The notes below the pieces were generated by a model. The model worked only from the letters and a program-made list of their open reading frames with translations. It was not told the DNA's origin and searched no databases. From assembly GCA_903813345.2 (NCBI GenBank), contig CAIIXF020000012.1:10834932-10898931 (forward strand): DNA of 64,000 nt, given 5' to 3'. Below are positions 345-60,527 of this stretch, in pieces (position 1 is the first letter of the stretch; the number at the start of each line of letters is the position of its first letter). A program made the translations under genes and the position numbers. The DNA comes from Owenia fusiformis (lineage: Eukaryota > Annelida > Polychaeta > Sabellida > Oweniidae).

Positions 345-3300
345 ATGGATGCATATAGAGACCAACATGACAGAGAAACCAAAGTGCTACTGTTAAAGAA
401 AAGAAGACTTAAACTTGGGAAGTTGTTGAAGAATGAATCAAATCAGTATGAGGTAGGAAACACCTTTTAAAATCTATGCTTTTTGTGTTTTTAAAGTTTG
501 CCATCAGTGAAAAACTGGTAGTGATTCTTAATATATTAGCAATGTGTAGTCTCATGTAGAGCTCCATTTTACTTTTAAATTCACTAATCAGGCCCGTAGT
601 CAGGATTTGCCAGGGGGTTCCCAAACCCTGCGAACCCCCCCCCCCCCCCTGGCTACAGGCCTGCTAATGGCTTATATTTCAATGTTCAGTGTTTAAACAA
701 TGAGTTGTCTCATGTTAACTTCATTTTGATTCAGGCTGAGTTGACTTTTACATTCATGAATGGCTTATATTTCAATGTACAGTGTATAAACAATGAGTTG
801 TCTCATGTTAACTCCATTTTGATTCAGGCTGAGTTGAAAGGTGTCTCCAGAGGGAACTTTGACCTCATGGAAGATATGAAGGAAAGAACTGATGAACTGA
901 AAAGTGCCAGAGAAGAAAAAAGAAAAAAGGTAAGCATTAAAGAAGTGTTATCAGGTTTTTTGTTACCCCTTGATATTTGATAGATGTGGTAAATGTTTAT
1001 CTCTGTACAAACTGACAGATTTAATGTCATATAACAAATCAATCAATAAGATAGAAGATGTATAAATGAATTCATTTTTTATGACTAATAATTGTAATGG
1101 TTTTTATTTGACAGATTGCAGAAGAAAAACTGTATGACCATTTCAGAAAAAATAATCCAGATCTTCGAGAGGTAGGTATTTCTTATTTCTCATAAAGCCA
1201 ACGCATGCATTGCTCTGTTGCTCGATAAATGTATCACATATTTCAACCCATAGTTTGTAGTTAAGCTGTTAGTTAAATGTCAGGAATACAGTGTAATAGA
1301 TAATATTATATAATATATTATATATAATTATAGTAACACAAAGTTTTAGCTGAATATTGAAGAATATTCAAGAAAGTTAGAGCAAAAAATTCAAGACTTT
1401 TTGGACATTCCTCATATTCAGTTAATTTTTGACTGATTAAACGGTTACAGACACCTCCATTTGGTTGGCAAATCCAGCAGTTTGGTTAAGGATATGATTT
1501 TGAGAATCCAACTTATTGAAAGCTGAATTTACCCTTTGCATTTGGAAGAAGGAAGTACTTAAAGGAGTCACCTCCCCAGTATTGAAGCATGGAAGTGGTG
1601 AATCTATTAATGGTGTTGAAAATACACCTGAAGTAACCCTCTTGCAAATCTATTGAATATTTACAGTGCCCTATTGGAAATGCAAAAATTAATGTTTGTG
1701 GCATATTTTGACCAAATTAGGATTACAGAGGCACTGTCTGATAATAGCAGAATTAGAGTACCCCCATAAGAGACAATGCATCCTAACTGCAAAATGAGAA
1801 ATGTGCATCTACATTATATGAGAAATTTAAATGATTTCAGTTGGAGACTGAGCAACACAAGAGACATGTCATAGGAGCATGGGGTGAACAGGCATCAGAA
1901 AAACAACAGGTCAGTTCATGTTTGTCAAAATAATCTCAAATTCAAGAAAATTAGTGAAAACTCATGTGATTATAGCTTCCCTGCAATGAATGGAGAATCA
2001 TATTTCCAGAGTTACAGTGATACATATAAATTCTATACTTGATCTTGTATGTTCTTTAATATCTGCGAACCCAAAGCCTCCGTAAGTGAAACACCTCCTT
2101 AGTGGAACGCTTTTTGGCAGAACACAGGTTCTACTAAATTTTGAAATTAAATTACTGGATATATATTGCTTTAAAGTTCAACAGATATCTTTGGAGTTTT
2201 CCTGGAATTTAGGCGACAAGATTTATGAGGTGACCACCTGCAAAGAGACTCATGCCAATCAGCACAAGACAATGATAAAGCACTTTTTTAAAGTGCGATG
2301 AAAATATAAATTTTGGAGTGCAGTTTTCAAAAAATAAATTGGATAGCAGTATTCACCCTATGCAGACAGAGCCTGTGGGAAATATTGGGTGCGGCGCAAA
2401 TGAGCGGAGAGTGCGGAGCTAACGGTCATTTTTGAATTTAAAATTGGGATATTTCTGAAACTAAGCCGTTTTGGGACTTCAAATATACCAAGATATGTGT
2501 ATTTGACACCAAATATCAATAAAATTGTGAAAATAGTAGTGCAATTCATTTTATAGCGACGCAGTATGCCTTAAACATTTCCCAGACCTATATATTTTGA
2601 GACTATCCTTTTAATACTGCGTCCCCAGCATTCATAAAAAATGGTGTTCAAGATACACTACCCATGCAAATTATTTTTGCATCTTGGAAGCCAGGCAGTA
2701 TCTGTGTGATTTTATAAAAATTCGGAAATGTACTTCAGATATGAGCCCCTCTAAATATTGGGTGCGGAGCTACGTTTATGGAGCTGCTCCGCACCCAATA
2801 TTTAGAGGGGGCTCATATCTGAAAAAATTTCCGAATTTTTATAAAATCACACAGATACTGCCTGGCTTCCAAGATGCAAAAATAATTTGTATGGATAGTG
2901 CACCTTGAACACCATTTTTTATGAATGCTGGGGACTCAGTATCAAAAGGATAATTTCAAAATATATAGGTCTGGGAAAGGTTTAAGGCACACTGCGTCGC
3001 TATAGAATGAATTGCGCTACTATTTTCACAATTGTATAGATATTTGGTGTCAAATACACATATCTTGGTATATTTGAAGTCCCAAAACGGCTTAGTTTCA
3101 GAAATATCCCAAATTTAAATTCAAAAATAACCGTTAGCTCCGCACCCTCCGCTCATTTGCTCCGCACCCAATATTTCCCACAGGCTCTGTCTGCATAGGG
3201 TGGTATTGATGGTCTCAGGTGAAACATACTTTCATGTGTTTCAGGAACTGGAAAATGCACGAAGAGAGAAGGAGAGATACGAGGAGGAGTTAGAGAGAAG

Positions 3301-6300
3301 GAGACGGGCTGCAATAGAACATGAGAGGAGTCTAGAAGAGCAGAAATACAACAAAGAAAAAGAAATCAAACAAGTATTAATGACACAAGTCCAGGAACTC
3401 AAAGCTAGAGAGAAAGAGGTCGGTCAATATATTAATTTTCAATTTTAATTTCTGTATTTTTGAATAATTTGATTTACTAATATATTTATTTGTTTTTATG
3501 ATACAAAAATGTAGTTTTCTTTTAAATAAACCTACAAGTGTTGCTAATATTCAGCTGGTGTTAACCACCCTGGGAAAATTATTTCTCATGACATTTCTTT
3601 CACCATTTTCTGTCTGATATATCTTCTATCACATTTTCTAAACTTTTTAGAGTGTGTACATGACAATTGTAAACTGTTCATGTGCATATAGTTAAGTTAC
3701 TTCTGACTTTTAGAATAGTTTTCCAATTCAACAATTTCACTTTAATTCAAAACATAAGCATAATGATAGTCTCATATTTTATATCTTGTGTGTGTATTCA
3801 GGCTGATATTCTGAAGAGGGAGCAAGACCTTCTCCTAAAAGAGCAGTGGGAGCTGGAACAACTAGAGGTTGAGAGAAGACAAATGGAAGATCAGAGAAGA
3901 CAGAAAGAGTTTGGGTAAATATTTCAATTAAGGATTTAAATAGATTGAAATTATGTGAATATTCAGGGAGAGATTTTCTTTTTCTGTATGGCACTTGCAC
4001 TTCCATTCAATGAGTATTGGCCTAATTATATAATATTCTTGAGCTTTTCTTTTTTCTTTCTGTGTTCTGTATGGCACTTGCACTCCCATTCAATGAGTAT
4101 TGGCCTCAAATATTCTTGAAATATTTGTAACATGTCTATTTTCTGTTAAGACGTATACTGCTACGGCAACATACAGCGGCTCTAAGACGCAAGAGTAAGC
4201 AGATACTGGAGGAGCTAGAGGCAGACAGAAAGTTCTTGGAGTCAATGATGGAGAAGGAGAGAGAAGACCAGACAGTTAAAACTGCAAGGAGAGAGAAAGC
4301 AAAGGCAGATGCAGAATGGATGAAAAAGGTAAGGTACAATGAAAAGGGTTCTCCACTAAGGTTGAAAATGTAGTTCATTTCACTGTATTCAGGCATTCAG
4401 TCAATTGCCCAAGGAGGATGGGATCCCAGAGTGAAATTCAAATATTCTGCCATGATATCAGTGTCATGACGTCATCATTGCCGTGTAAAAAATTCAAAAT
4501 TCAAACAGTCCCCATTTCCCAATATTTCTCACTTCAGAATTTGATTCACGAGTTTTGGTCTATTACCTAACAAAAAAAATTCAAAGGCACAAGAAATAAA
4601 AATATTCGCCATTCGGCATCTGTAACAAATGGCAAGGGATGACATTTTGCATGTTAATGCCTTGTTTAATAATGACTTTGTCTGTTACTGACAAGTTTGA
4701 TACGGATAAAGGCAATGTGAAATCCTCAGGAGCACATTGACATGTGGGGAGCAAACATGATTTCATAGTGCACAAAATATACATCTTCTACAAAATGAAA
4801 AAAACATTCAAATATAACAAAAAATTATTTTGGATTCCATAGATATGTTTGATTTTTAGCATAATTACTTTGCTAGTAAAAGTTGAACTACTTCGCCAAA
4901 TGCCAATATTTGTTAAAAGCTGGCCAACCCAAATGAAAGTACAGTGAAACCTGTAAATCTGAACACTTCTTTAATTCGAACACTATTAAAATGAATACTT
5001 TTTCTCAATCCCCTGTGGCATTCTGATTTGACAGATTTAAATGTACTTTTTTGAGGAACTTAACTAGAACTTGATTCTTGTTTTAGGTGATAGATGACCA
5101 GATCAGAGTAGAGAAAGTAAGGGAGGCTGAACTAGACATGTTATACCAGTAAGTTTACTTACTTTAGTAGTAAGCTACTTAAGTTTATTATTGTTTTTTC
5201 TCTGTGGAATTATAAATGCAATTTGAAATCTATCTTGTTATCATATAAATTAAAACCAATCTTAAAGATGTTGTTTGCCTTCATTTTTACTTATTGTAAG
5301 AATCTTAAAGGATGGTGAAAAATGGATCGTACTTAGAGGCTCATGCCCCATCTTCACACACTCGGTCTTCCCTGCTTTCGACCAATGGAAATCGAGTGAA
5401 TGAAGATGGTCATATTCAGGCCAGCTGTTTTAATTTACTTACTGGCAGACTCTAATTTTTTCTCACCCCCGTGTACATACTGTAACACCTTATAAATGTC
5501 ATAATCCTATGATATTGGACCATATATAAATGTATGTCCCAATCCCTGCATGAACACACCTCATACATGTATTGATAATCCTACACACCTAATCCGCACC
5601 TTGAAATTACAGCACTGTACAGTACCATATTTCACGGTACTGTACGGTACATTTGGTGATTGGCTGTGTATGGTATTATACAACTCTTTCAGGGATGAGG
5701 CTGCAAGGGTTTGGCAGAAGAGAGAAGCTGAATGGGCCCAGGAGAGGAATGCAAGGGAAAGACTTATGAAAGAGGTACTGAACTCTGCTTATGATTATTG
5801 CTCTTCAAAGTGTGATATGTATCACTGTGTGTAAAATCCATTGGAAATGTTGCTTTGAAATTTCATGAGTTTTTCAAGACATGTTTATGGTTTCTCATTC
5901 TGTAAATATGAGTAATGCACTGGCGCTTTGTACCACATCATTCTTCTATGCTGATTAGTGATGAATCTTGAAAAAGTGATTTTTAATGAAATCTCTGCAT
6001 CTGAACTTGATTAATGAGAATTGCTTTAATCTATTTTAGAAACTGTAATTTTTGCTATGTACACTATTGTTTAAACCAGTGGTGTTAGTTATATAAAATA
6101 GTGGTATACAAAACATGATCCACTTTTTCAATGTATAGATTATGGCTGGTAGACAAGAACAGATCGCACAAAAAATGGAGGAAGTGAAACAACAGCAACA
6201 GGAGTCACTTGAAAGACGTGAGCAACTTGTGCGTGACATGGAGTTAGCGCAGCAGATGACTCATAGAGAGGCTCAGCAGACAGAGCGTGCTAAATCTGAG

Positions 6301-6835
6301 CGTAAAACTGAGCTACAATCACAGGTAATTTCATTGTTTTCCTACAAAACATCTGTTATGCACTAAAATTCGAATAGTAATTCAACTTTTTAGAGTGTGT
6401 GTGTTAAATGTGAAAATTTTACCCATTCTTCTCAAAAACTTTGAAACTGGTGTCTTTTTAATTAACATTAGGTGCACTGGATAGTCTAAGAATCCATAAG
6501 TTGGAGCAGTTTAAAAAGCTTCACTTCTATTTTTAGAATTTTTGTATAAACCAGGCATGATTTGAAAGTTCAAAGTGATGCAAAAATTTTCAGATGCGTG
6601 CCAGACTCCAACAAGAGGAGGAAGATAGATGGCGCCAGTTGCAGGAACTTGAGCAAGACAAACATGCGGAGGATGATTACGAGGAAATGCTCAGACAAGA
6701 AGCTGGCAGGATGAACCTACATGGCTTTCAGCCTAAGGTATTTAAACCACCTATTCATTGGTTAATCATTGGCTTATTTATACATTGCAGGAAGCCAGGA
6801 TCCCCACAAAAATAAAGGAGTTTTTTAAAAACTGA
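345..6835 (+). CDS. TCHP: Trichoplein (TCHP) orthologue, 3' twelve exons (5' end outside window)
   Basis: Exons: 344-452, 828-929, 1115-1171, 1841-1909, 3245-3418, 3802-3914, 4151-4328, 5087-5148, 5693-5774, 6139-6324, 6594-6737, 6791-6835 (stop TGA). All introns are GT-AG and the phases agree throughout. The joined product is about 439 residues, almost entirely charged coiled coil rich in Glu, Arg, Lys and Gln. It lines up with remembered vertebrate trichoplein (498 aa), for example KSAREEKRKKIAEEKLYDHF followed by RKNNPDLRE, and later EAELDMLYQ and KREAEWAQERNARERLM. About 60 N-terminal residues should lie upstream. The ATG at 345 is an internal Met, because the exon opens with the last base of a split codon. 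In vertebrates trichoplein binds keratin filaments and acts at centrioles, where it restrains primary cilium assembly; that role is carried over from the family. The C-terminal exon (EARIPTKIKEFF) is the least certain. Exon 2 has a duplicated acceptor. Confidence 0.9.
589..663. mobile_element. Short MITE, CAGGCCCGTAGCC family
   Basis: A 75-bp element with inverted ends (CAGGCCCGTAGTC and GGCTACAGGCCTG) and a 5-bp target duplication CTAAT at 584-588 and 664-668. It lies in TCHP intron 1. Longer relatives with the same ends are at 17437, 17766, 32386 and probably 41968. It has no coding capacity. Confidence 0.75.
666..840 (+). repeat. Tandem duplication spanning the acceptor of TCHP exon 2
   Basis: A unit starting around AATGGCTTATATTTCAATG and ending in GATTCAGGCTGAGTTGA occurs twice with a 93-bp period. 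Each copy carries a CAG acceptor followed by the first codons of the exon (GCT GAG TTG), at 735 and at 828. Because 93 is a multiple of three and the stretch between is open, use of the upstream acceptor would insert 31 residues in frame. Confidence 0.85.
2354..3202. mobile_element. 849-bp fold-back (long inverted repeat) element in TCHP intron 4
   Basis: The two halves are near-perfect reverse complements meeting around 2778, with arms of about 420 bp. The ends are CACCCTATGCAGACAGAGCC and its complement. A 5-bp target duplication GTATT flanks it exactly (2349-2353 and 3203-3207), which marks it as an insertion. No transposase-like frame is present. A transcript could form a hairpin of several hundred base pairs inside this intron. 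Confidence 0.9.
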
Positions 6836-9014: not shown

Positions 9015-9300
9015 TTATCATATCACTGTCCAGCTAAACATCCCTAATATTATTAAGTCATTAAGTCTTCAGATATTTTTACGAATCTACTCGGTTCGTC
9101 TGCCATTTTGACTTAACTGAACTAAATTATTTACACTGAACGAAAACAAATTCTTTGAAAATTCCCGGGAGCGTGGGATATCGCTAGATATCTCACTGTT
9201 GTCTTATCTGATTAGCATTGCCATTGAATATCGCCAGATATCCCACGACATGTGACCCGGTTTTGACCAATCATACTGTCGCTAGCTAGATAGTGATATA

Positions 9301-14521: not shown

Positions 14522-15911
14522 ATGATGTATACAACAAGTGTACTTGTCTTGCTTGTGGCCTGCACAGTTGTAGCACCCGATCCCTTGAATCCTCCAAAAT
14601 GCTGTGCAAAAGAGCTTTTTCAGGTTTGTTAATATACCTTTTTATTTGATACTAAACCCTAAATTCTACATATCATTGATTATTCATCTTATTTTGTATT
14701 AACATGTATTTCCATTATTCTATAGGCTGACATTCAATTGACTCAAGGTGTAATGATTGATGGGCAAGGCATGGCCCATTTTTTAGATGGCCGCTGGTCG
14801 TTTGATCCCCGCAATAAAACTAACGCATTTGTAGGGAAAATGACTATGTATGGGCAGGAGAAACAAGTGAAGTTCATCCAAACTGCGGCAAAAAAGCAAT
14901 ACAATATATTAGATGGAGCTTGTCAGGTTATACCAAAACTCTACCCTACTGTAGGTGATGGGTGCATCCCGGATAATGCAATTTTTAAGGGACAGGAAAT
15001 TCTGGGGAGAGATTTCGTGGTAGGTATTATGAAAAAAATATATATCCACCTGTTTCCTTGGCTAAAAATTAAAGTAAGAGTGCACCGTGCTCAACTTAAA
15101 ATCTGTGTATCAGCCTTGGGATTTCAACCCAAAATGTGGTAACTATTAAAAATCAGGATTCTGACACTTTTTTTACACAAAAACTGTGGAAGTGAAATTC
15201 AAATATTTAAATACCTCCTTTAGCGTAAACTTGGCACGCCTTTTTATATTTGCCCCACCGGATCAGGATTTTAACGAAGAATTTCTCCCGATTTAAATAA
15301 ATATTTATTCTTGTCGAGATATGCACAGAAGCTCTGCTGTATAAAGAATTCTAAAACAGCGGATTATATAAAAATGGACTGTAACAAATACCCGGATTTG
15401 TTGGTTTTAAAAAAAAAAATTTTTGATATCACTTTTTATTAATTCTTAATTCTATTAGGAATTCTTGACTAAAATAAGTTCAGGAATTTATGTCAGAAAG
15501 ATGGGTCTTAAATCTTTTTATGCTCAGCATAAAATGGGACATCACTTTTTATGCCAGCATAAAATGGGACATCACTTTTTATGCTGGGCATAAAAAGTGA
15601 TATCAAAAAAATATTTTTTTAAAAAACCAACAAATCCGGGTATTTGTTACAGTCCATTTTTATATAATCCGCTGTTCTAATATTTTAGTTTTTGGACTGC
15701 ACATTTGTTGGGTGACAGATACAACCTCGTTTTTGAGGTGACTGTAACGCCTGATTGTGTCCCTGTAACGATGACAATTACTGGTGAAATAAATAATCCT
15801 GTATTGGGCAAAATGGGTCTTGCAACAACGATGCGATTTTCCAGCTTTCAAGAAGGGGTTGAAGATTTGAGTGTATTTGATATTCCTGACTTTTGTCCAA
15901 AAGAACTTTGA
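14522..15911 (+). CDS. Ependymin-related secreted protein (EPDR family)
   Basis: Coding exons: 14522-14623, 14726-15019 and 15689-15911 (stop TGA), with a non-coding first exon near 13728-13786. The product is about 205 residues. It has an N-terminal signal peptide (VLVLLVACTVVA), then PPKCC, a SFDPRNKT segment with an N-glycosylation sequon at about residue 64, YNILDGAC, GDGCIP, PDCVPV and FDIPDFCP. This cysteine order is that of the ependymin family: secreted, calcium-binding or lipid-binding glycoproteins that are often multicopy in marine invertebrates. The Met pair at 14522/14525 leaves the exact start open. Odd point: exon 2 ends in phase 0 at its only good donor, but exon 3 needs phase 2. 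A microexon was missed, an unusual splice site is used, or the gene is damaged. A fold-back element ends 13 nt before exon 3. Confidence 0.8.
15356..15675. mobile_element. 320-bp fold-back element abutting an ependymin acceptor
   Basis: ACAGCGGATTATATAAAAAT at the left is matched by ATTTTTATATAATCCGCTGT at the right, with arms of about 80-100 bp around a core of short repeats (AAAATGGGACATCAC). Flanks TCTAAA (left) and TCTAAT (right) suggest a 5-bp target duplication. It ends 13 nt upstream of exon 3 of the ependymin-related gene, so the branch point of that intron must lie in or beyond it. Confidence 0.8.
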
Positions 15912-38800: not shown

Positions 38801-41800
38801 CTTGAATTAAATGAGCACAACCTTAAATGTATTAACTATTGTACTCCTGGAAAACTTACTTGAAGTGACAAGCACTAATAATAGTTTCCTTTGTAACAAA
38901 CATATAACAAAACAAATAATGTAATTTTGTAACATTATTTATTTTCAATGTAAAATACAATATTATTTGGATTCATTAATATTTTTCTGAAAATGAATGC
39001 TAACAGTTGGTCAAATTCAACTCCCAAATTGTTGCCCAGCTGACCTCCTTAATAATCATCTACTGTCCTGGACAGTATGGTCGTTTTGAATCATTCATTT
39101 TAATGAATACTTTCCCTAAGGCTCTTCTGGGACTTGCATAGTAACCCATTTCATTACTGCGATTGTTCTTGCAGCTGAAAAGTAGAAACACAATGGGCAA
39201 CATTAGAAAAATAACACTACAAATCTCTACAAAACTCTTCAAAAGTATAGAATAGAAACCATTTTTTGCTTTGGTTTTTTTTGCAACGTAAGAAATCAGA
39301 ACTCCATTGATCATTATTAACCAATCATCTTGAGTGATTATATAAGTCTACATGTACATTGTACCTATTTGTAAGTACTGTTTTTGTTTTCATGAACTAG
39401 AATATATGTAGCATAACACAATTCGATAGAAAATTAAAACTTGTCCATGAGGGGATGGTAATGGAGGAGTTTTATTCCTTCATTAAATAACACTTTCAAA
39501 AAATACTGTTTTGACCAATTGAGCCCCTTATTGGTTATTCACTAACAAATGGTGCATATATCTTACAAATGGTGCATATCATATTACAAATGGTGCATTT
39601 CATCTTACAAATGGTGCATTTCATCTTACAAATGGTGCATTTCATCTTACAAATGGTGCATATTGTCTTACAAATGGTGCATATCATCTTACAAATGGTG
39701 CATATCACCTTACAAATGGTGTATATCATCTTACAAATGGTGCATACTAGTATCTACTTACTTTCCAGTAGCAAATGTCTTCCAGTTTCTGCATTGTACT
39801 GCTGTATTTTTACACCTATTGTTAATAGAGTCAGTGAAGTAGTAGACTGCCATCATGTGTCCAACGTCATTATCATTGGGGTAGAAGTCAACATGTCCTG
39901 AAAGGTTAACACAGTTTTTGGGGTAAATGTCAATTTGGCACTTTGAGACATCAAAAATCGAAATGTTGAAAATTAGCTTTATACCATCAAGAACTGGTGA
40001 CATAGTGTTGATATAAGCAATTATTCATTTATGGCTGGCATTTTTTTTTTTAATTATTAAAATCATATAAACATATATACATATCAGTGATAATGACACC
40101 CTAGTGGGTATATGTCTTATCACAAGCTAAAATATTTAAAAATGCCATATTTTTAGTTACATTTATTATTGATATTACAAAGTGTGTCAAAGTATAAATT
40201 ATGTAAGCCGAAATGGGAAACAAATAAAAATAATTTATAAAAGATATAATAAAACATTTTAATGATGTAGAATAGCTAAATGGAAAAAGTTCAGTGGTTA
40301 ACAGTCTTTGTTGGTGATTGTAACAAATTGTTACATTTTTAACTATTGCAGTCATTTCTAAGTTGTTACATTTTGTTTTGTCAATGCCTTGTTTAAGATT
40401 TCTGAGGACTTTTTATTAATTCTTAGATTTTCTGGAATACACTTTATATATAAATGTCCCCTTTCAGCCTGAATTATAGTTTGTAATAAAGAGTTTTCAC
40501 CTTTAGGTTTGATTGAGACCCAGCTTGTGTGTATGACATTGTAATAAAGAGTTTTCACCTTTAGGTTTGATTGAGACCCAGCTTGTATGTATGACATCCA
40601 CAAAGTCAGCATCAGTTCGGTCAATGGTGTCATCTTTATTGTTGAGGTTGAACAAGAATTCTGCAGGGTCAAGACCTGGAATATATACCATTACCATTAG
40701 TGCTTAACCTTTTTTTTTTATTTATTCAAGTTTTAGATTTACATTATAATGTAAGGTTACATGATAATACAGTTAATACAAATATAATTAGGGTCATTTT
40801 TTATAAGAATGTATATAAGGGGGTTACAGTGCTTAACCTGCCTGTTCAAGTTGAGTTATAAGTCATATTTAATTTGGGCATTTCAGTTTTATTTTGATAC
40901 GATTAATGATAACACGATCAATTGAACATCAATTGGATTCAAGATATGTAATAGATGGAGTATATGTTATTACTGATTGAGTTTGAGAATGGGCGTAGCG
41001 ACATGGGGTTTGTTGGGCTTATGCCAACCCCACCCTTTTCCTCGAACCTTCATAAAGCTAACACACAGCTGACCTAATAAAGGCCTTGATTCTTTAACTT
41101 ATGGCAATACATGTAGTATAACCTTCTGCACATGGCTCTCAATTATCATTTTATCACATTATTGTCTAATCTTACTTGATATTCTGCCTACTTTTGGGTT
41201 CTTCAGATGCATACCAGCATAACCTACAGTTTGCCCCCCAAGGCTGTGACCTAGAAATATAATATTACATGTATAGTCCGGCCAAGAGGAGCTTTGCCTT
41301 AACCCTGTGTATTCACCATACATTGCAGTGCTTGCATTAGGTTAAAAAATTTGTGAGTCCCTGAAGGAAGAATTTTTTTTAAAAAGTGTCGTTTCAAAAA
41401 AGTGTGTCCCCATACAAGCCTGTTTTTTAACCTGTGTGGGACGGCGATAATGCAAGCCCTGCATTTGAATTTGTTGATTAACAAAAATACTTACCCACTA
41501 AATGCACATTTTTCATGTTGAGTGATGTGTGTCTGGCCAAGAATTTCACATAGTCTGCAATTTCCTTGCCTACTGTCTTTGTTCTCTCCCTAGCAAGAGT
41601 ATAGTCCAAGTTGTTGCTTCCTCTCTGCCAGTCTACCACAAACACATTCATATTCCCCTGGGTGAAGAACAGGTAATTTAATACTTGATACTTGTAGTTT
41701 AAGATGTAATGGATGACACAGGGGAATGTTTGTGATTTTGCAAAATGATGATTACAAAATCATATTCAGGTAGACAAACTGAACATATGCTCCTCATACA

Positions 41801-44800: not shown

Positions 44801-47800
44801 TTTGAAAATCATCTACAAGTTACCAGGAGTTCAAATCTGACATTAGTTTTAGGATTTGACCTTTACTTGACCTTCAGTGCCCTTCGAAAGGTCAAAAAAC
44901 TTGATTTTTCAAATTGATTTTTGGATGTAAATTTTGGTCAGCTTAATCACAAAAGACCTTACTGAGCTCTGAATAAGTAAAATTTTCAAGGTCAAAGGTC
45001 ATCAAATAGGTCACACAACTATGCTATCTAAGTTTGTCAAAGTTCGAGACTACAAATCCAAATCAATATTTTTGTTTGAAAGTCAGGATATAAATTCCTC
45101 TGAAGGTTCCAAACTGTGTGAGCATAGGACCGTGGGTCCTTCATTGAAATCTAAAATTGTTTATCACCTTTGAGAATTTAATTTTCTTTGAAAACGAGAA
45201 AGAAAGGAATTTTGCCATTTATTTTACCATTTATTACCATATTGAACTGCAGGCTTTGTGTATTAGCCTTACACCTAAGTAATACTCAAGATATTATTCT
45301 AACAATTATTATTCTCAAACACCATGTTTTTCACACTCAGTCTATATGGGACAATATGGTTTGTTATCAGCCACCTGGATATAGAGTTTCCCCTGAGCTG
45401 CATTTGGGCTGGCATAAAATCCCATAAGGTTTGTTCCATTGTCAGTGCACCTGGAAAATATGGTTCACTGTCAACACACATACTCATGACCATAGAGTGC
45501 TCCCAAAGTTACAATAAAAAGCTTGATATACAGGGTGGACCAAAAATGTTACTCTTAAAGATGTTGATTTAAGAGCAAAAAAGGCTCCAAAACTTAATGA
45601 AATATGTAGTTTGGATGTTCATTTATGTCTGTGGATTATATTTTATACCACAAACACTTTATAAATACCTGAAATTTGCAATAAAAGTGCCCAAAAATTG
45701 TTGTTTCGAAATTCCCCATTTTTCCTGTATCGCGCTAGTCACGTGACCATTACACGTAGCAGTCAATGTACAGATATTACAGTACATATAATATGTTCAA
45801 TATGGCAAACATCAGCGATTCTGATTCCCGGGTTCTGGGAAATGACTATATAAATCGGCGAGAGGGTGTAATTTGAATGAAGACAATTTAAGGATATGAC
45901 GGAGAATCAACTAAAAATGTGAGTTCTGGAATGAAGACCCGTTGCCATTGACTGAAGCGATACTATTATCATACTCAGTTTGAATCTAGACGCGGAAAAC
46001 AGATTATGAAAACAGGTTTTCTGCAAAGTTATCAAATTTAGAAGATATGGATCTTGTTTTTGAGTGGCTTAACAAGCATTTAGATACCAGACTTGGCGCT
46101 ATCTCTTGTCAAATACATGCACTGGACTTGCAGTAAATTGGCCATTGCAAATTGCAAAATCAGATCGTCAAATTAAACGCTTCGTTTTTAAACCTACGCT
46201 TCATATCTTCTTCCAAAACTTTAGGATTCGATAGAGATAAGTTATAACTTGTACAGGAAAAAATGGCAGATCCTACCTTAATTTAGAATCGCTGATTTCT
46301 CTGGACAAATTCCGAGAAGAAATTGTTCAACATCGCGATCACCCCAGACAACATGTCGCGTGCGTGTCACTCTGAACTCACGTGATAAAATACGGCATCT
46401 TGATTGGTTACTACTCGTGTTGTCATGACGTGAAAAGCAGTAGTAAACACTGAATATGTTAATGAACTGCCATATATGGAACAATTGTCTTTCTGATTGG
46501 TTAACTTTACACGCCTCCTAAATGAATATAGTAGTCGTAGTAAATGATTCATTGATAACTCTGAAAGTGGGCGTGACCAGCTTCATTTTGACACCAAATT
46601 CAAGATGTTTCAAATCAAAATGGCCTCGCAAGACGAGGTTGAAATATCAGTAATTTGATACTGATATGGTCTACGATAGATCAAAATTGACTGCCCGCGT
46701 CACATGTCACGTGAGCCTATATTTGTTGAAAAATGAAAGAGATAGTGACACTTTTTAATCTTAAGTTTATACCAATATTACAAACACATATCTATTTTTT
46801 TCATTATATATTTATTTCTTCATAATACATACATTTGTTTTATACTACATTGATTTATTTTTGCAAAACCTTTGCTATTAGATCTTTAAATTATGTTCTT
46901 GCCAGTTCAGAAGAGAAAATGCTTTTGGTCAACCCTGTATTTCCCAAGACTGATACCAAGTATATATTTTAATTAATAGTTAGTTATTTAAATTGCAATG
47001 TAGAATATTCCTTTTTAGGTCATTATGTAGTGGAGTAAAATGCTCTACGAGAAGTATCTGTCGACATGGTTATATACAAAAAACAAAGAAATAAACACAT
47101 TCATTAGCAAGCTATTTTTCTAAATGTGACCACTTTCAAGCCATGATTGACTGTTCATGACCCATAATACATCGATAAGATCATGTATGTTTTAATCCAA
47201 TATACATTTATTTAGCATTAAATCTTGTCATGTATACCATTTGTCTTATAAAAGTCAGGAATTGTCCTGTTGAACTTTTCTTACCTTTTATTAATGAAAG
47301 CATCCCAATCTGAGCACTTGTATGCAGTGTGTTTACACTTGGAGTTGATAGACTCATTAAAGTAGTAAATCGCCATCAAGTGACCAGTCTCCCCATTATT
47401 AGGGTAGAAATCAACATGTCCTGTTTATAAATAGATGTGATAAACTACTGTTAGGGTAGAAATCAACATGTCCTGTATATACAGTTAGATGTGATATTCT
47501 ACTTTTAGGGTAGAAATCAACATGTCCTGTATATACAATAGATGTGATAAACTACTGTTAGGGTGAAAATCAACATGTCCTGTATATGAAATAGATGTGA
47601 TAAACTACTGTTAGGGTAGAAATCAACATGTCCTGTATATGAAATAGATGTGATAAACTACTGTTAGGGTAGAAATCAACATGTCCTGTATATACAGTTA
47701 GATGTGATATTCTACTTTTAGGGTAGAAATCAACATGTCCTGTATATACAGTTAGATGTGATATTCTACTTTTAGGGTAGAAATCAACATGTCCTGTATA

Positions 47801-50800
47801 TACAATAGATGTGATAAACTACTGTTAGGGTAGAAATCAACATGTCCTGTATATACAGTTAGATGTGATATTCTACTTTTAGGGTAGAAATCAACATGTC
47901 CTGTATATACAATAGATGTGATAAACTACTGTTAGGGTGAAAATCAACATGTCCTGTATATGAAATAGATGTGATAAACTACTGTTAGGGTAGAAATCAA
48001 CATGTCCTGTATATGAAATAGATGTGATAAACTACTGTTAGGGTAGAAATCAACATGTCCTGTATATAAAATAGATGTGATAAACTACTGTTAGGGTAGA
48101 AATCAACATGTCCTGTATATAAAATAGATGTGATTAACTACTGTTAGGGTAGAAATCAACATGTCCTGTATATGAAATAGATGTGATAAACTACTGTTAG
48201 GGTAGAAATCAACATGTGCCCCTCAGTAAAAGATAGATGTGAGAAAATTGTTATCACATGTATTTTATCATAAAACCATTTTTCAGGGTAGAAGCTTGAC
48301 ACAGTAACTCCTGGATTTTCTTGAACATCCCTTAGTGGCAAGGAAGATGTATTCAAGCCTATTTCTCACCTTTCGGTTGCTCAGATATCCAGCTTGTGTG
48401 TATAACATCAACAAAATCTGCATCAGTTGGGTCTAATACATCATCTTTGTCCTCAAGGTCAAAACCCAACTCTGCAGGGTCAAGTCCTAAAAACTCACTA
48501 TTTTGGATTATAAGAATTAATGGATCAAAGTTCCTTGTTCAGCAAATATATTTATTAAATACCCTCGGGTGTTAATTTATTAGTAAAAGCCATTTATGTA
48601 GTCAATGTGTCATGTTAAAATTTGTCTACAAATTCATACTCAATACTTTTTGTACTATTATAAACGTTTTTCATTGTGCAATATTTTTGTAATGCTCTAT
48701 ACGTTATACAAACCCCAATATTTAACAAAACTTTCATTAAAATTTCTTCCATACCTGAGATGCGACCGATCTTTGGGTTCTGTAGCTGCATACCAATATA
48801 TCCTGCTGTTTGGCCCCCTAGACTGTGACCTAACAATTTTTGAGTTTCACAATTACTGCCTTAACTTTTAACTGGATGGTAATTTTAATTTTATTTCTAA
48901 CATAATCTCGCCATGTTAATAGATGAAGACATTGTTTCACTACTCTGCATTAGTAATAGTATTTTCACCCGGATTTAGTAGCTCCATATGTGGCACATAA
49001 ATTTAAAAGTTCCCTATGTGGCACATATGTTCCATTATTTGTTACATAATGACAACTCAGTGATCGCCCTAGTTATAAAATAAGTACATGTTCTTAGCAC
49101 TGCACCATCCACTTGAAATTTTGAAAAATAGGCTTGCACCAATCTGAAAATCCACTTGCACCCACTTGTCGAATGAGAAAATTATGAGAGAACTGTTGAC
49201 TGATTTTTCACAAAAAATCTTGCACAAACACTACTGAAGTCTGTAACTTGACGCGTGTGCTCCTTGCATTTATTCATTGATAAACATTTAAATATAATAC
49301 CTATGACATGAACTGTATTCATATCCAATCCAGTATTAGCTGCAAGAAACTTAATATAATCTGCAACCTCTCTTGCCACAACCTTTGTTAGCTCTCTAGA
49401 TTTTGTGTAGTCAATGTTGAATGAGCCACTGGACCAGTCCACTGTGAACACATTCATAGAGTCCTATAGTAGAAATACAAACCATGAATCTGCATTTATG
49501 ATGTTCGGGGACAATAAACCTGTTAATAATAATACCCTGATATGTGGAACATATCAAAAGTGAAACACTTTTTCGAGGTACCAGAGATATTTCGCATTTT
49601 GAAATTAAAATATTATTTGATCTTATTGTTACAAACATAACATTTATCTTTTGAGATCTGTTTTTTATAGTAACTTTTTTTTGTTATTAAATGTTGTAAT
49701 TCTAGAGAGCTCACCTTTATCAATAAAGCATTTGTGTTCTCAGCCATGTAGTCATCTTCTCTGCCAGCAAACCAGCCATGAATGAAGAACTTAGTGGGAA
49801 GGGCAGGGTTAAAGTTGGAGTCTCTCAAGGCCTGAGCATCATCGTAGGCTATTGTCACACCCAGATAGTTGCCAGATGAATCAACTCCATTTGCCCTAAT
49901 ATGGTAATATTGTCCTAATATGGTAATATTGTCCATATATGGCCAATTTGATATTTATTTGTAATATGAGGTTTCCAAATTGTGTAATTATTCAATGTAC
50001 AACTTTGGTAAATTCTCTAGGTCTTACTCAATTTTTTCATTCATAAACATTGTGAAAACAAAATGGCAGTTGTTTAAATTCAAATTTTGTAATTATGACA
50101 TCTCCATATATGGCAGATGCAGAATATCGAGATGGAAGCCTTGGATCTAATCCTCCTTGCTTATAAAACTAACTTAACTTCCCTAGAACTGTTTTTTGAT
50201 GTTTTTATATCACCCTTAAACCCTTACCTTGTATGGAGCTGAAGATTAGCTACTCTCTCATCACCACTTGGCTCAAACAAGAACCCTATAATGTCAGAAA
50301 CTACAATGTTAAATAGTGCTTTAAATAGCTACAATTCAACATTTAGTGACCTCCATACCACCATATTGAACATTAGAATATGATATGGCACCCTATTGAA
50401 AATATACATGGCACCCTATTGAAAATATACATGTCACCCTATTGAAAAGGTATATGCCACCCTATTATAATTATACATGCAACCCTATTGACAATGACAT
50501 TCCAACCTATTGAAAATCTGTTTGAGCCTGTCAGAAGAATTATAGACATATTTTGACTCAGGTGTTGAGAAAAGACTGAGAGATTTTAATTTTCTTATGC
50601 TGTGTTTGAGATTAACATACAATTAATCTTATATATATAATTCATTCATTTTAAGTTTTTTATTAGATATTTCATGGATTGTGAAGTGTTTTTTTTAGTA
50701 TAGCGACTATGACTAAAAAAAGTCTAAAAGTAAAAAGTTTCAATTAAATTGAAATTACCTTCTGAAATCCCAATAAGTATGAAAGCAAAAATGAGAAGTG

Positions 50801-53800
50801 ACGCCATGTTGGCTATCGTTACATGTAATGCTATGATTATGGGATGGGTGCTTCAGTCTTATCATATGATATATGATAATCAAGAGAGATGGTGATGGGT
50901 TGATACATTGAGATAACGTGTTGTTTACCATATGGATGTTTGTCATGTGAATTATGATTTTCATTAAGATATACTAATATGATCGAGAGCTTTGTACTCA
51001 ATTATTTAGAATTATGGAAATTGTCAATTCCCTTTTGTATTGCCTGATTGAGTAAGGTTGAACATAAATAGTTATGATTAGGTCCCTGGAAATACCAAGT
51101 TACCATGATGTATAAATGACACCTTCATTTATTTTTCAAGCATTAAAGTAGGTGCTGCACCCACTTGAGATTTTAATAATAGGCTTGCACCCACCTGAGA
51201 ATCAATTTGTACCCACATGATAATTCATCAAGTTGTCACTATTATTTAATTTAAGACATCTTTTGAAATAAAAATTTTAGATAATTTAGAAATAATTAAC
51301 AATGTTATATAACTTTTTATTTATATAAACATGCATTAATAAATTCATTAACATTTAGTAATTAATAGACTGAAAGCATATAGGCGTAGCCAGGTGTGGT
51401 GCGCACACACCCTCCCCCCAATTTTGAAGCACATGACTGAAAACCTGATTTTTTGGGCGATCGCATCCCTCCTGACTGAAAGCTGGCTATGCCCCTGGAA
51501 AGCAATGGTCATGTTCCAGTTTTCCAATTAATCACAAGTGTCAACCTCATAGGGATTACAACAAAACAAATGCATTAGCAAGATTAATAAAATGACCCAT
51601 ATTTTAATCCCATTAGTACCATGTTGACATTTTGGAGATAAACTCATTATTAACTATAATCTAAAAAGTCAGTGGTCTAAGAATGGAAATCACAAACTGA
51701 ATAATAAGAATTATTTTTATGTAATAAACGTTCTTATAAGTTTATCAATATATAGAAATATAGGTTGAGTTTTACTGGGGTTGAGTTTTACAGGGTTGAG
51801 TTGACTTGGGGTTGAGTTTTACTGGGGTTGACTTGACTTGGGGTTGACTTGACTTGGGGTTGAGTTTTACTGGGTTGACTTGACTTGGGGTTGAGATGAC
51901 CAGGAAGCGAAAAATATGCCTATCTGTATTGTGAAAATTATTAAGCTAACTTCTCTGGATGATAGCATCATTTGTATGTACATGGTCAGTAAGAAAGGTC
52001 TATTCACTGTTGAGTTTAGCTCTCTGATCTCCAAGATGAATTCAACCTGTAGAATAGTAAAGAAGTGTGAGAAAAATTGGAAAAATATTTGACTAAAATG
52101 TATTCACTATATACATATTACTCCTTCCAGCTCTCTGATCTCCAAGATGAATTCAACCTGTAGAATAGTAAAGAAGTGTGAGAAAAATTGGAAAAATATT
52201 TGACTAAAATGTATTCACTATATACATATTACTCCTTCCAGCTCTCTGATCTCCAAGATGAACTCAAACGCAAGGAAAGTAGATGGAACGCGAGTACTAC
52301 ACGCCTGAGGAACAGGGTGGAAACTGTCGAGAAAGAAAATACTGAGTATAAAGAGGAGCTAAAGTTGGTCGAGAAGAAAAGACTTGAACTTTGGCAGAAA
52401 GAGCAAACTTTAATCCAACAATCAAAGGTAACAGATTTTGATAGATTTGTTGCTTAATATTGAGAAAGCTCAAATAACAGTGAAGTATTTATATAGTTTT
52501 TTAAGATGATTTCAATTTGTTCAAGATTTGTGGAGTTGTTATATGATTTACTAAATATTTAAAATCTGAATTAGTTTTGATGTCACCACCACGAGTGGTG
52601 GTTATATATTGTTGTTATAGTCTACGACTTTTTTTGTGGACAGTGTTCAACAGTTGGTGTTTGCCATTCAGTGGTTGGTTTTTGGCATTCAGTGGCTCAT
52701 GCTTGGCAGTCAGTGTCTGTAACAAATGGCAGGTGGTTACATTTTGCATGTTAAAGCCTTGTTTGTCCATTATTTTTAAAATGTAGTTCAGACAAGTACA
52801 GTACAATCTGTCAAGTCCTAACATAGCTTGGATTGGCTAGAAGTATTCAGATAACACATTTGGGACTGAGAAAAGGTGTTCACATTAAGAGATGTTCATA
52901 TTAGAGAGGTGTTCAGATCTACAGGTTTTACTGTATTATCATGAGCTGACACTGGGAAAGGCCAATTTGTTATGATAAGAATTAAACTATTTCAGAGAAG
53001 GTCATCACTCGAATGGGATAAGCAGAAAAGATCCTCTCAAAAGACATCTTCATACATCACCATGGAAACACTATCACCATCATCAAATTCACCACCCAAC
53101 CCAACTAATGCTAATGTAAGAACAAGCCCAAGAACCATACATAGTGACTATAGTAATGAACCACTTGCCACAAGGCAGCAGAATCAAAATGGTGATATAA
53201 TGAAGACTCATAAGGAAAAAACATTAAAAAATACAAAACAAACTGATACAGTGATGTCAAACCCCAAAAGTGCCAATATAAAAGATTCGTCTCTAGTACA
53301 ATCAAATAAATCTGAAGTGACCAATAAACTGAAGCAGCAAGGTGGAGATTTGGGGCTAAATAAGGGGGGAAATAGGAATAATGGTCCAGTTCTTAAGCCA
53401 AGGTCACCGGGGCAGGAAGACACACCTAGGAAACAGATACAGATGGAAACAAATAATGAAAGGTAATGACAAAGAATTAATAAATGCTGTAGTCATTTCA
53501 CAAATTTGTCCAAAGCAGGGATAATGCTCATTTAGATTGATGAACTTCGTTCTCCAAACCGAGAATCGTCCTTTAAAGGCATTTATTACTAGGTACAACA
53601 TCATTCATCATAGCCTCACATATTTGTATTTTAGCAGTGTATCAGCTGATCAGATGAAAGCAATACCCAGAAAGCAAACTACAAAGTTCAGTGTTGCCAA
53701 CGAAGTAGAAAAAGGTGATAAGGAAAACTTTGAGGAACTACAACATGCGGATGGAAAGGTGAATAATGTGATCGTTATTGTGAATTATACTTAACTTTCC

Positions 53801-56800
53801 TTGCCCCCCCCCCCCATTCTAGTTCAGTTAAATTACTGGTTGAGCCAGGTCAAATCCAATTGGCCTCATTTATTAATGCCTATATTGTATTGTTAACATC
53901 CATGTTAACATCTATGCAAAAAACTGTTTAATGATTTATTCAAAGTTGAGAGACAGTATGGAGTCAATGAAAAAGAAGAAGTTAAAGTGGGCTAGATCTG
54001 ATAATGATTTAATTTTATGATAAATAATGTATTTAAAAAGTAATATTCAGTGATATATTTAAGGTTGAGAGACAGTATGCAAATGGAGCCAAAGAAATCT
54101 ATTTCCCCAATGGGACTAGGAAGCAGATCTCAAGAGATGGCAGTTACATTATTGTATCTTTCTTCAATGGGGATGTGAAACAGATATTTCCTGATCAGAG
54201 AGTGGTATGTATATGGGTTACATCATTGTATCGTTCTTCAATGGCGATGTGAAACAGATATTTCCTGATCAGAGAGTGGTATGTATATGGGTTACATCAT
54301 TGTATCGTTCTTCAATGGCGATGTGAAACAGATATTTCCTGATCAGAGAGTGGTATGTATATGGGTTACATCATTGTATCGTTCTTCAATGGCAATGTTA
54401 AACAGATATTTCCAGATCAGAGAGTGGTATGTATATGGGTTACATCAATGTATCGTTCTTCAATGGCAATGTTAAACAGATATTTCCAGATGAGAGAGTG
54501 GTATGTATATGGGTTACATCATTGTATCTTTCTTCAATGGCGATGTTAAACAGATATTTCCAGATCAGAGAGTGGTATGTATATGGGTTACATCAATGTA
54601 TCGTTCTTCAATGGCAATGTTAAACAGATATTTCCAGATGAGAGAGTGGTATGTATATGGGTTACATCATTGTATCTTTCTTCAATGGGGATATTAAACA
54701 GATATTTCCAGATCAGAGAGTGGTATATATGGGTTACATCAATGTATCTTTCTTCAGTGGGGATGTGAAACAGATATTTCCAGATCAGAGAGTGGTATGT
54801 ATATGGGCTACGTCAATGTATCGTTCTTCAATGGGGATGTTAAACAGAAATTTCCAGATCAGAGAGTGGTTTGTATATGGGTTACATCATTGTATCTTTC
54901 TTCAATGGGGATGTTAAACAGATATTTCCAGATCAGAGAGTGGTATGTATATGGGTTACATAAATGTTTCTTTCTTCAAAGGGGATGTTAAACCGAAATT
55001 TCCAGATCAGAGAGTGGTATGTATATGGGTTACATAAATGTATCTTTCTTCAAAGGGGATGTTAAACAGATATTTCCAGATCAGAGAGTGGTATGTATGT
55101 GGGTTACATCAATGTATCTTTCTTCAAAGGGGATGTTAAACAGATATTCCCAGATCAGAGAGTGGTATGTATGTGGGTTACATCAATGTATCTTTCTTCA
55201 AAGGGGATGTTAAACAGATATTTCCAGATCAGAGAGTGGTATGTATATGGGTTACGTCATTGTATCGTTATTCAATGGGGATGTGAAACAGATATTTCCT
55301 GATCAGAGAGTGGTATGTATATGGGTTACGTCATTGTATCTTTCTTCAATGGGGATGTGAAACAGATATTTCCAGATCAGAGAGTGGTATGTATATGGGT
55401 TAAATGTATCGTTCTTCAATGGGGATGTGAAACAGATATTTCCAGATCAGAGAGTGGTATGTATATGGGTTACATCAATGTATCTTTCTTCAATGGCGAT
55501 GTTAAACAGATATTTCCAGATCAGAGAGTGGTATGTATGAGGTGTCCTAAAAGGGGAATCCCAGGAAAATTAAGTTCATTAAGTATGTGGGGTACAATGA
55601 TTGATGTGAGCTTTATGGTTTCCAAAGGTTGCCTCTTAATATAAAGTGTTTAGGAAATCAAGAACTTTCAATAGTAAAGTTTCAAGTAAAATGAAAAAAT
55701 TTAAATAAAGTTTGACGTAATATGTTGCCTTTAATCCAAAAGGCCATTATTTGTCATCTTCAAATGTTGTTTGTTTCTACAAAGTCACAAATGTAACTAA
55801 TGCAAAAATGTCTATCTTTATACTAGTTTGTGTGTATAATCGTGCTGATTTCATGTATTGCAGGTGTACTACTATGCAGATGCTCAAACCACTCACACCA
55901 CCTATACTGATGGTCTTGAAGTTCTGCAGTTTGCAAAGTAAGACATATAATGTATATTATGCGAGGAGACATGCTTTATATTATTAACTATCTTTTAGAT
56001 TCTAAAGTACTTTGTTTCATTCAGGTCTACTGTTACCCCCATTTTTAGCGAATATTTCTCTATAGCCTAACCATTTAAGGGTTAAAGATGCATTGACATC
56101 TTGGATTGTTATATCATGACCCCCTGTGTCTTTCTTAGGGTCAATAAAAGTTTAGTGAGGACTGATAATTTATTTACATCTGCTATGAGAATGCTCAATA
56201 AGGTCATCAACAGGCCATGACACCCTATGCCATTCTTAGGTTTAATAAAGAGTGGAGACTGATAATTTCCATCTGCTATGAGAATGCTCAATAAGGTCAT
56301 CAACAGGCCATGCCACCCTGTCATTCTTAGGTTTAATAAAGAGTGGAGACTGATAAGTTACATCTGCTATGACAATGCTCAATAAGGTCATCAACAGGCC
56401 ATGCCACTATGCCATTCTTAGGTTTAATAAAGAGTGGAGACTGATAATTTCCATCTGCTATGAGAATGCTCAATAAGGTCATCAACAGGCCATGCCACCC
56501 TGTCATTCTTAGGTTTAATAAAGAGTGGAGACTGATAAGTTACATCTGCTATGACAATGCTCAATAAGGTCATCAACAGGCCATGCCACTATGCCATTCT
56601 TAGGTTTAATAAAGAGTGGAGACTGATAAGTTACATCTGCTATGAGAATGCTCAATAAGGTCATCTACAGGCCATGCCACCCTGTCATTCTTAGGTTTAA
56701 TAAAGAGTGGAGACTGATAAGTTACATCTGCTATGACAATGCTCAATAAGGTCATCAACAGGCCATGCCACTATGCCATTCTTAGGTTTAATAAAGAGTG

Positions 56801-59800
56801 GAGACTGATAAGTTACATCTGCTATGAGAATGCTCAATAAGGTCATCTACAGGCCATGACACCCTGTCATTCTTAGGTTTAATAAAGAGTGGAGACTGAA
56901 AATTTCCATCTGCTATGAGAATGCTCAATAAGGTCATCAACAGGCCATGACACCCTATGCCATTCTTAGGTTTAATAAAGAGTGGAGACTGATAATTTCC
57001 ATCTGCTATGAGAATGCTCAATAAGGTCATCAACAGGCCATGCCACTATGCCATTCTTAGGTTTAATAAAGAGTGGAGACTGATAAGTTACATCTGCTAT
57101 GAGAATGCTCAATAAGGTCATCAACAGGCCATGCCACCCTGTCATTCTTAGGTTTAATAAAGAGTGGAGACTGATAAGTTACATCTGCTATGAGAATGCT
57201 CAATAAGGTCATCAACAGGCCATGACACCCTATGCCATTCTTAGGTTTAATAAAGAGTGGAGACTGATAATTTCCATCTGCTATGAGAATGCTCAATAAG
57301 GTCATCAACAGGCCATGCCACTATGCCATTCTTAGGTTTAATAAAGAGTGGAGACTGATAAGTTACATCTGCTATGAGAATGCTCAATAAGGTCATCAAC
57401 AGGCCATGACACCCTATGCCATTCTTAGGTTTAATAAAGAGTGGAGACTGATAAGTTACATCTGCTATGAGAATGCTCAATAAGGTCATCTACAGGCCAT
57501 GACACCCTGTCATTCTTAGGTTTAATAAAGAGTGGAGACTGATAATTTCCATCTGCTATGAGAATGCTCAATAAGGTCATCAACAGGCCATGACACCCTA
57601 TGCCATTCTTAGGTTTAATAAAGAGTGGAGACTGATAATTTCCATCTGCTATGAGAATGCTCAATAAGGTCATCAACAGGCCATGCCACTATGCCATTCT
57701 TAGGTTTAATAAAGAGTGGAGACTGATAAGTTACATCTGCTATGAGAATGCTCAATAAGGTCATCTACAGGCCATGACACCCTGTCATTCTTCGGTTTTA
57801 ATAAAGAGTGGAGACTGATAATTAACATATGCTATGAGAATGCTCAATAAGGTCATCAACAGGCCATGACACCCTGTCATTCTTCGGTTTTAATAAAGAG
57901 TGGAGACTGATAATTAACATATGCTATGAGAATGCTCAATAAGGTCATCAACAGGCCATGACACCCTGTCATTCTTAGGTTTAATAAAGAGTGGAGACTG
58001 ATAAGTTACATCTGCTATGAGAATGCTCAATAAGGTCATCAACAGGCCATGCCACTATGCCATTCTTAGGTTTAATAAAGAGTGGAGACTGATAAGTTAC
58101 ATCTGCTATGAGAATGCTCAATAAGGTCATCTACAGGCCATGACACCCTGTCATTCTTAGGTTTAATAAAGAGTGGAGACTGATAATTTCCATCTGCTAT
58201 GAGAATGCTCAATAAGGTCATCAACAGGCCATGACACCCTATGCCATTCTTAGGTTTAATAAAGAGTGGAGACTGATAATTTCCATCTGCTATGAGAATG
58301 CTCAATAAGGTCATCAACAGGCCATGCCACTATGCCATTCTTAGGTTTAATAAAGAGTGGAGACTGATAAGTTACATCTGCTATGAGAATGCTCAATAAG
58401 GTCATCAACAGGCCATGACACCCTATGCCATTCTTAGGTTTAATAAAGAGTGGAGACTGATAATTTCCATCTGCTATGAGAATGCTCAATAAGGTCATCA
58501 ACAGGCCATGCCACTATGCCATTCTTAGGTTTAATAAAGAGTGGAGACTGATAAGTTACATCTGCTATGAGAATGCTCAATAAGGTCATCAACAGGCCAT
58601 GACACCCTGTCATTCTTAGGTTTAATAAAGAGTGGAGACTGATAATTAACATATGCTATGAGAATGCTCAATAAGGTCATCAACAGGCCATGACACCCTG
58701 TCATTCTTCGGTTTTAATAAAGAGTGGAGACTGATAATTAACATATGCTATGAGAATGCTCAATAAGGTCATCAACAGGCCATGACACCCTGTCATTCTT
58801 AGGTTTAATAAAGAGTGGAGATAGATAATTTCCATCTGCTATGAGAATGCTCAATAAGGTCATCAACAGGCCATGCCACTATGCCATTCTTAGGTTTAAT
58901 AAAGAGTGGAGACTGATAAGTTACATCTGCTATGAGAATGCTCAATAAGGTCATCAACAGGCCATGACACCCTGTCATTCTTCGGTTTTAATAAAGAGTG
59001 GAGATAAATAATTAACATATGCTATGAGAATGCTCAATAAGGTCATCAACAGGCCATGACACCCTGTCATTCTTCGGTTTTAATAAAGAGTGGAGACTGA
59101 TAATTAACATATGCTATGAGAATGCTCAATAAGGTCATCAACAGGCCATGACACCCTGTCATTCTTCGGTTTTAATAAAGAGTGGAGACTGATAATTAAC
59201 ATATGCTATGAGAATGCTCAATAAGGTCATCAACAGGCCATGACACCCTGTCATTCTTAGGTTTAATAAAGAGTGGAGACTGATAATTTCCATCTGCTAT
59301 GAGAATGCTCAATAAGGTCATCAACAGGCCATGACACCCTGTCATTCTTAGGTTTAATAAAGAGTGGAGACTGATAATTTCCATCTGCTATGAGAATGCT
59401 CAATAAGGTCATCAACAGGCCATGACACCCTATGCCATTCTTAGGTTTAATAAAGAGTGGAGACTGATAATTTCCATCTGCTATGAGAATGCTCAATAAG
59501 GTCATCAACAGGCCATGACACCCTATGCCATTCTTAGGTTTAATAAAGAGTGGAGATAGATAATTAACATCTGCTAATGAGAATCTACATTTAATACAGG
59601 AATACATGACCATTTAAGTCATTCTTAGGATCTAGAGATAATTTGCATATTTTGTATCTGCCATGATATGATCAATGAACTACATTTATGGTATCAAAAA
59701 TAGAATATTACATTTAATTTGCTTTTCAATGTACTACTACAAAGTAGCCTATAAAATACCATGATTTTCTCTTTTATAGCTATCATGTTCAGTAAACTGA

Positions 59801-60527: not shown

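Follow-up and report, generated by a model that had tools for sequence, protein, structure and literature searches.

Tandem repeat arrays spanning exon edges are a recurrent feature of the Owenia fusiformis genome

Exon-edge arrays in the analysed window

The window (the whole stretch of DNA that was analysed, 64,000 nucleotides) carries exons of CENPJ, of two lipases and of a gene named TCHP in the initial annotation. The assignment of the exon at 54064-54204 to CENPJ/CPAP is supported by a match to CPAP in PDB (6e-19) and to the Pfam family Tcp10_C (1.4e-11), and both lipases are supported by Pfam PF00151 (1.9e-8 and 5.9e-8). No Pfam family was above the cut-off for the exon at 52242-52427, whose assignment to CENPJ is that of the initial annotation, nor for two exons of the TCHP-named gene, an unconfirmed name from the same source.

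Six tandem repeats of this window had been described as built from a splice junction. By TRF and inspection of the sequence, five of them are arrays with the junction inside the repeat unit, whereas the sixth is one diverged extra copy. The TCHP-named gene has an acceptor array at 666-837 on the + strand (93 bp, 1.8 copies; unit TTGATTCAG/GCTGAGTTG, the slash standing for the junction here and below), with one decoy acceptor AG at 733-734, the authentic AG at 826-827 and the exon start at 828. In the gene read as CENPJ, also on the + strand, an acceptor array at 52018-52267 (111 bp, 2.3 copies; unit CTTCCAG/CTCTCTGATC) adds decoy exon starts at 52020 and 52131 to the authentic one at 52242, and a donor array at 54143-55538 (74 bp, 19 copies; unit GAGAGTG/GTATGTATA) holds the authentic donor GT at 54205 together with 18 intronic decoy donors. 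Both lipase arrays lie on the - strand. That of lipase 1, a donor array at 40481-40597 (58 bp, 2 copies; unit CCTAAAG/GTGAAAAC), has the authentic exon end at 40559 and one decoy donor 58 bp deeper in the intron; that of lipase 2, an acceptor array at 47399-48217 (53 bp, 15 copies; unit ATAAACAG/GACATGTTG), has the authentic exon start at 47420 and intronic copies upstream that carry AG/GACATGTTGATTTC. The single diverged copy of an acceptor and exon start, at 53930-53962 (+ strand), precedes the authentic CENPJ exon start at 54064 by 119 bp; 16 of its bases, GTTGAGAGACAGTATG, are identical to the authentic edge and its intron end is partly similar.

Two further edge arrays, absent from the initial annotation, are borderline and lie on the - strand at other exons of the lipases. 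In lipase 1, units similar to GTAAGATGATATGCACC stand directly behind the authentic donor GTAAGTAG at 39545-39760 (21 bp, 9.7 copies; 39545-39746 by TRF) and carry a donor-like GTAAG without clear exon bases. The acceptor array in lipase 2, at 49891-49942 (19 bp, 2.7 copies; unit CCATATTAG/GRCAA), includes only about 5 exon bases.

When the TRF arrays with a period of at least 30 bp were merged, 5 of the 12 in the window held a junction; those without one were located at 3973-4146, 15514-15595, 31423-31988, 51763-51895, 56172-59584, 62342-62445 and 62412-62569. The array at 56172-59584 (91 bp, 37 copies that are 94% alike) sits between CENPJ exons, and no exon edge was recognised in its unit. 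AT-rich stretches with words similar to ATGGCCGCCATTTT and internal repeats recur at 31041-31988 and 62342-62569 of the window and in two loci sampled outside it (L020, 4243-4907; L053, 4603-5524), with a match of 83% over 671 bp between a stretch of the window and that of L020. A 24 bp in-frame repeat at 27887-27940 encodes NSPSSHTF repeats in a coding-looking open frame; duplications of this type inside an exon are compatible with selection for the reading frame.

Frequency of junction arrays in sampled gene families

All P values for array placement rest on samples taken outside the window, the window itself being left out. Sample 1 comprised 213 exon matches (myosin head, kinesin and dynein AAA_6) in 51 loci and 190,601 bases; these loci were hand-picked clusters of at least two exon matches, not all of those present, and were chosen before their sequence was seen, with the exceptions of L013 (kinesin), chosen after a train of matches spaced by 159 bp was visible, and of the single-exon locus L030, which was added. 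The replicate comprised 93 exon matches (49 of the nAChR ligand-binding domain and 44 of the CCT chaperonin) in 38 hand-picked loci and 58,048 bases, and its test was fixed in writing before its sequences were retrieved. A USP-like locus, L014, was retrieved for its match train and stands outside sample 1.

An array across a known exon end was found at 17 of the 306 exon matches, and in all five gene families taken together these arrays are about 2-3 times more common than random placement would give at the sampled loci, which bears out the recurrence beyond the window that had been anticipated. The arrays of sample 1 at exon ends known from HMM matches are acceptor arrays in L013 (kinesin; 159 bp, 18 copies), L020 (37 bp, 10 copies), L044 (61 bp, 4.5 copies), L045 (42 bp, 3.5 copies) and L058 (87 bp, 3 copies), donor arrays in L026 (30 bp, 7 copies), L032 (34 bp, 4 copies) and L050 (91 bp, 5 copies), and three arrays in L053 (a donor array of 57 bp in 17 copies and acceptor arrays of 154 bp in 3.3 and 76 bp in 4.2 copies). 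Those of the replicate are in L083, L088, L095 (two), L098 and L099. Junctions were also recognised by eye in the units of L017, L034, L049 and a 93 bp array of L045, at other exon edges; as these are away from the ends of HMM matches, they were scored as misses in the tests. Inspection thus shows the splice site in the units of 12 arrays of sample 1 (11 automatic and L049) and of the 6 of the replicate, as well as in those of L014, L017, L034 and the L045 array of 93 bp. The retrieved stretch of L017 does not reach its authentic exon, but four other loci have dynein exons that match the unit.

The strongest cases are the kinesin exon start present 18 times in L013 (C2:23.27 Mb) and, outside the sample, the USP-like exon start present 11 times in L014 (G000:C9:8170300-8174300). 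The unit of the latter, 150 bp or 50 codons, includes the acceptor and the exon start, and one frame at this place stays open over 666 codons, a putative coding frame. The kinesin locus L053 (G000:C6:40703900-40710700) holds one more array besides its three junction arrays; this 39 bp array (1-358) starts exactly at a donor GTAAG without exon bases and was left uncounted. Arrays appear to be concentrated in particular genes, this kinesin and CENPJ being two examples. The 18 bp donor array of L094 fell under the pre-set minimum of 20 bp. Among the sampled families, a muscle-type myosin gene at G000:C9:37986009-37994334 has about 11 irregularly spaced tandem copies of one exon (Myosin_head about 27-83), which are probably a large set of mutually exclusive exons.

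The initial annotation had also held that the repeats arose as separate events rather than from one spreading family, and our searches agree with it. In a genome search that ignores highly frequent words, all 9 matches of the CENPJ unit lie at its own array; when 27 array stretches were compared with every sampled locus, the only matches elsewhere were in exons of the same family (kinesin, dynein).

In the placement test, the collapsed unit of each array was moved to random positions of its own locus, other than those that fall entirely within an exon match. For periods of at least 30 bp, a known junction was covered by 11 of 26 arrays in sample 1 against 4.4 expected (P=0.001), by 6 of 7 in the replicate against 1.9 (P=0.0008) and by 17 of 33 in the pooled data against 6.25 (P=6e-6); for periods of at least 20 bp, the figures were 11 of 44 against 5.0 (P=0.0045) and 6 of 9 against 2.1 (P=0.003), respectively. 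The pooled result held without L053 (14 of 28 against 5.2, P=5e-5), without L013 (16 of 32 against 5.9, P=1e-5) and without both (13 of 27 against 4.9, P=1e-4). Since the arrays within one gene are not independent, the fairest figure comes from drawing a single array at random from each of the 23 loci, which gave a median of 13 against 4.6 expected and a largest P of 0.003 in 500 draws. In an earlier test based on intron gaps, overlap with an exon match was seen for 8 of 19 arrays, where 2.4 were expected; the 8 include L051 (39 bp), where the exon match extended into intron sequence and no splice site is present in the unit, and which was set by hand to non-junction.

The excess over exon boundaries that the initial annotation had suspected is therefore upheld by placement, whereas a count of 40-mers made independently of TRF is less favourable to it. 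In the raw count, a local copy was present for 17 of 569 junction 40-mers and for 435 of 6211 elsewhere, which is the opposite direction, because expanded arrays score once per copy. Once the arrays were collapsed, the rate was 3.0% (1.5-4.8) at junctions and 1.0% (0.3-2.0) elsewhere, or 1.6% (0.8-2.9) elsewhere when the junction arrays' own intronic copies stay in, with overlapping intervals in both forms; the excess by this route is thus about 2-3 fold. The sample was a non-random one; provided that its families are representative, an array would be expected at about 3% of splice junctions.

One could suppose that these are ordinary minisatellites, that stretches of 20-160 bp are duplicated anywhere and that some of them fall on exon edges by chance. 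The position of the junction within the units, which by inspection is varied as random breakpoints would yield, is in agreement with this, as are the lower raw rate of copies at junctions and the overlapping collapsed intervals. Random placement nevertheless has to face the excess found in both samples, which persists with a single array per locus, and the fact that junction arrays differ from the others, with a median identity of 96 against 86% and with 4.2 against 2.35 copies. We consider it unlikely.

The same difference, alike and many-copy arrays at exon edges, would also be expected if the exonic DNA of expressed genes were a mutational hotspot, duplicated more often than other DNA, the wholly exonic duplications being purged and those at the edges surviving in introns. 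The 24 bp in-frame repeat of the window points in this direction. So does the CpG content of the exons, the observed/expected ratio being low (0.29-0.44) in the four array-rich families and 0.73 in nAChR, where only one array was found for 49 exon matches; within loci L065-L102, the values of 0.73 for nAChR and 0.29 for CCT are suggestive, not significant. The difference in arrays between families is not significant either, with 5 of 44 in CCT against 1 of 49 in nAChR (P=0.10) and 16 of 257 in the four families against 1 of 49 (P=0.33), and the idea of a role of exon methylation was weakened. A hotspot is, in our view, about as improbable as chance placement. As for the mutational habit of seeding repeats at exon edges that had been proposed from the window, the data are explained at least equally well if arrays survive better when they are anchored in an exon under selection.

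Variation among copies and a proposed master-copy mechanism

The splice sites of the extra copies are conserved. GT or AG is kept in 114 of the 115 copies found by motif in 13 arrays, a figure that is partly built in, since the copy-finding motif includes the splice site (in L020 it caught only 4 of about 10 copies). In alignments of the copies from 17 arrays, of which 16 had usable splice columns, deviations numbered 1 in 224 cells at the splice dinucleotide, 169 in 5123 in the exon part and 198 in 2830 in the intron part; gaps were scored as variation, lipase 2 had no splice columns owing to an alignment gap, and the motif favours intact sites. Distinct substitutions per site numbered 51 for 397 in the exon part against 44 for 159 in the intron part of the seven arrays with at least 6 copies; by cell counts, the exon part is not less varied in CENPJ and in L026.

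The codon test covered 12 arrays and 103 of 106 extra copies, three being dropped because they differed by more than 20% from the authentic edge or were cut short. Variants present in a single copy were synonymous in 6 of 26 cases, near the neutral expectation of about 0.28, whereas of the 43 variants shared by at least two copies 27 were synonymous (P=2e-6) and 16 nonsynonymous; the two synonymous shares differ from each other (P=0.0025). Without the most extreme array, 19 of 34 shared variants were synonymous (P=5e-4), and P remained at or below 5e-4 whichever array was left out. These counts omit five donor variants of L053, boundary effects located beyond the repeat unit; with them, 34 of 73 variants overall and 28 of 46 shared ones are synonymous. 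In the per-variant list of seven arrays, which includes these five, 15 of 27 variants at intermediate frequency and 7 of 9 fixed differences are synonymous; some of the shared synonymous variants are fixed differences, which may be no more than changes that the exon itself underwent later. By their variant pattern, the extra copies look untranslated. Since the shared variants are mostly synonymous, their spread seems to have gone by way of the authentic exon, which is translated and under selection, and the authentic exon edge thus seems to join in the turnover of the array.

The conserved dinucleotides, with 1 deviating cell in 224 against 367 of 7953 elsewhere in the units, exon and intron parts together, could also indicate a selected function, the decoys being used for instance for the tuning of splicing or as alternative exon edges. 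This is very improbable, given the absence of synonymous bias among single-copy variants, the bias that the search motif brings into the splice-site figure, and the many periods that are not multiples of 3 (74, 58, 53, 91, 61, 154, 76, 41, 34, 37); preservation of the frame by unit length was likewise rejected, periods being only sometimes multiples of 3. An assembly artefact is hardly credible: assemblers do fail at repeats and one amphioxus mirage (see below) was apparently misassembled in a draft, according to the accessible part of that report (PMC3087553), but the copies here carry distinct variants, the arrays lie on many chromosomes, and in the window both strands and four genes are affected.

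The best explanation, to which we give a probability of roughly two in three, is that the arrays are mirage-type minisatellites in which the authentic exon edge is a protected master copy. A short stretch overlapping one end of an exon would first be duplicated in tandem, and the array would then expand and be homogenised by unequal exchange or slippage. Splicing would proceed normally on the authentic edge (at acceptors the copy nearest the 3' end, at donors that nearest the 5' end), because this is the sole copy joined to the rest of the exon; the extra copies would in consequence be intronic and tolerated. The authentic edge would remain in the array, with variants passing through it, and, as it is under protein selection, would act as a protected master copy. 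Such a master copy can account for the higher identity of junction arrays, for their larger number of copies and for their being more common than random placement predicts, and renewal driven by the exon would then be the cause of the excess.

A broader proposal, which we regard as possible and advance tentatively, is that of a genome-wide class of self-renewing minisatellites, in which exon-edge arrays persist and expand through re-seeding by the selection-protected exon, at about 3% of junctions and in thousands of genes. If true, it would mean a continuous supply of competing splice sites and of intron length in a phylum far from amphioxus. In these genes a true site can have as many as 18 natural decoys next to it, a sharp test of exon definition and splice-site fidelity; the arrays are also a ready source of intron growth, of shifts of exon edges and possibly of new introns, as proposed for amphioxus. 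That they are present so far from the lancelets, in another phylum and at about 3% of the tested junctions, would turn a lancelet curiosity into a wider force in the evolution of gene structure.

Comparison with known systems

New introns arising by tandem duplication across an intron-exon boundary were reportedly treated by Rogers in 1989 and by Gao and Lynch in 2009. Our arrays likewise involve a tandem duplication over such a boundary; there, two copies yield a new intron, whereas here the extra copies sit within an existing one. In the accessible sections of a potato study, a boundary-crossing duplication that created a new intron is described (PMC4974935). Among annelids, the metallothionein genes of earthworms contain minisatellites in intron 1 and duplications of the fourth exon, as set out in the available part of the corresponding paper (PMC12783039). 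They resemble the present case by their intronic minisatellites and by exon duplications that are missing from the transcript, whereas exon-edge units do not belong to the description given in that part.

The initial annotation knew of no named system of this kind, a statement that has to be corrected, since tandem repeats spanning exon and intron have been named 'mirages' in amphioxus, where the available portions of two reports place them in Adh3, the globins BflGb6 and BflGb9, troponin C and PGBD5 (PMC3087553, PMC3902484). In what could be consulted of the first of these (PMC3087553), mirages have units of 10-160 bp, occur at both exon boundaries, evolve in concert and show somatic and haplotype instability; Adh3 data and RT-PCR of globins suggest that regular splicing is undisturbed by them, and a role in intron gain is proposed. 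The open-licence papers searched gave no description of mirages outside lancelets, which does not prove their absence.

Like mirages, the arrays of O. fusiformis have a repeat unit that spans the exon-intron boundary, occur at donors and acceptors with units of 18-159 bp, and keep the splice signals in many copies (114 of 115 in the 13 arrays, a result that the motif search favours); concerted evolution is here indicated by shared variants (27 of 43 synonymous). Haplotype and somatic instability and RT-PCR belong to the amphioxus reports as far as their available text goes, while the present arrays are known from the sequence of one assembly. Sequence evidence from the genome agrees with an annelid and argues against a lancelet. 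A muscle-type myosin exon has its highest score with scallop myosin entries of PDB (about 230 bits, compared with 206 for human cardiac myosin, 205 for squid (3i5f), 200 for 3jbh and 169-170 for Drosophila entries), and the erythrocruorin linker domain PF16915, typical of annelids, exceeds its cut-off at three places of a single cluster; a search with COX1 gave no match. The arrays differ from mirages by their annelid host, by copy numbers of up to 19, by a frequency that was measured (17 of 306 exon matches; 17 of 569 junctions by k-mer) and by the synonymous filter on shared variants. Taken together, exon-edge arrays are a real and recurrent feature of the O. fusiformis genome; the mirage type was already known, and what is new is the annelid host, the measured frequency and the evidence for the exon as master.
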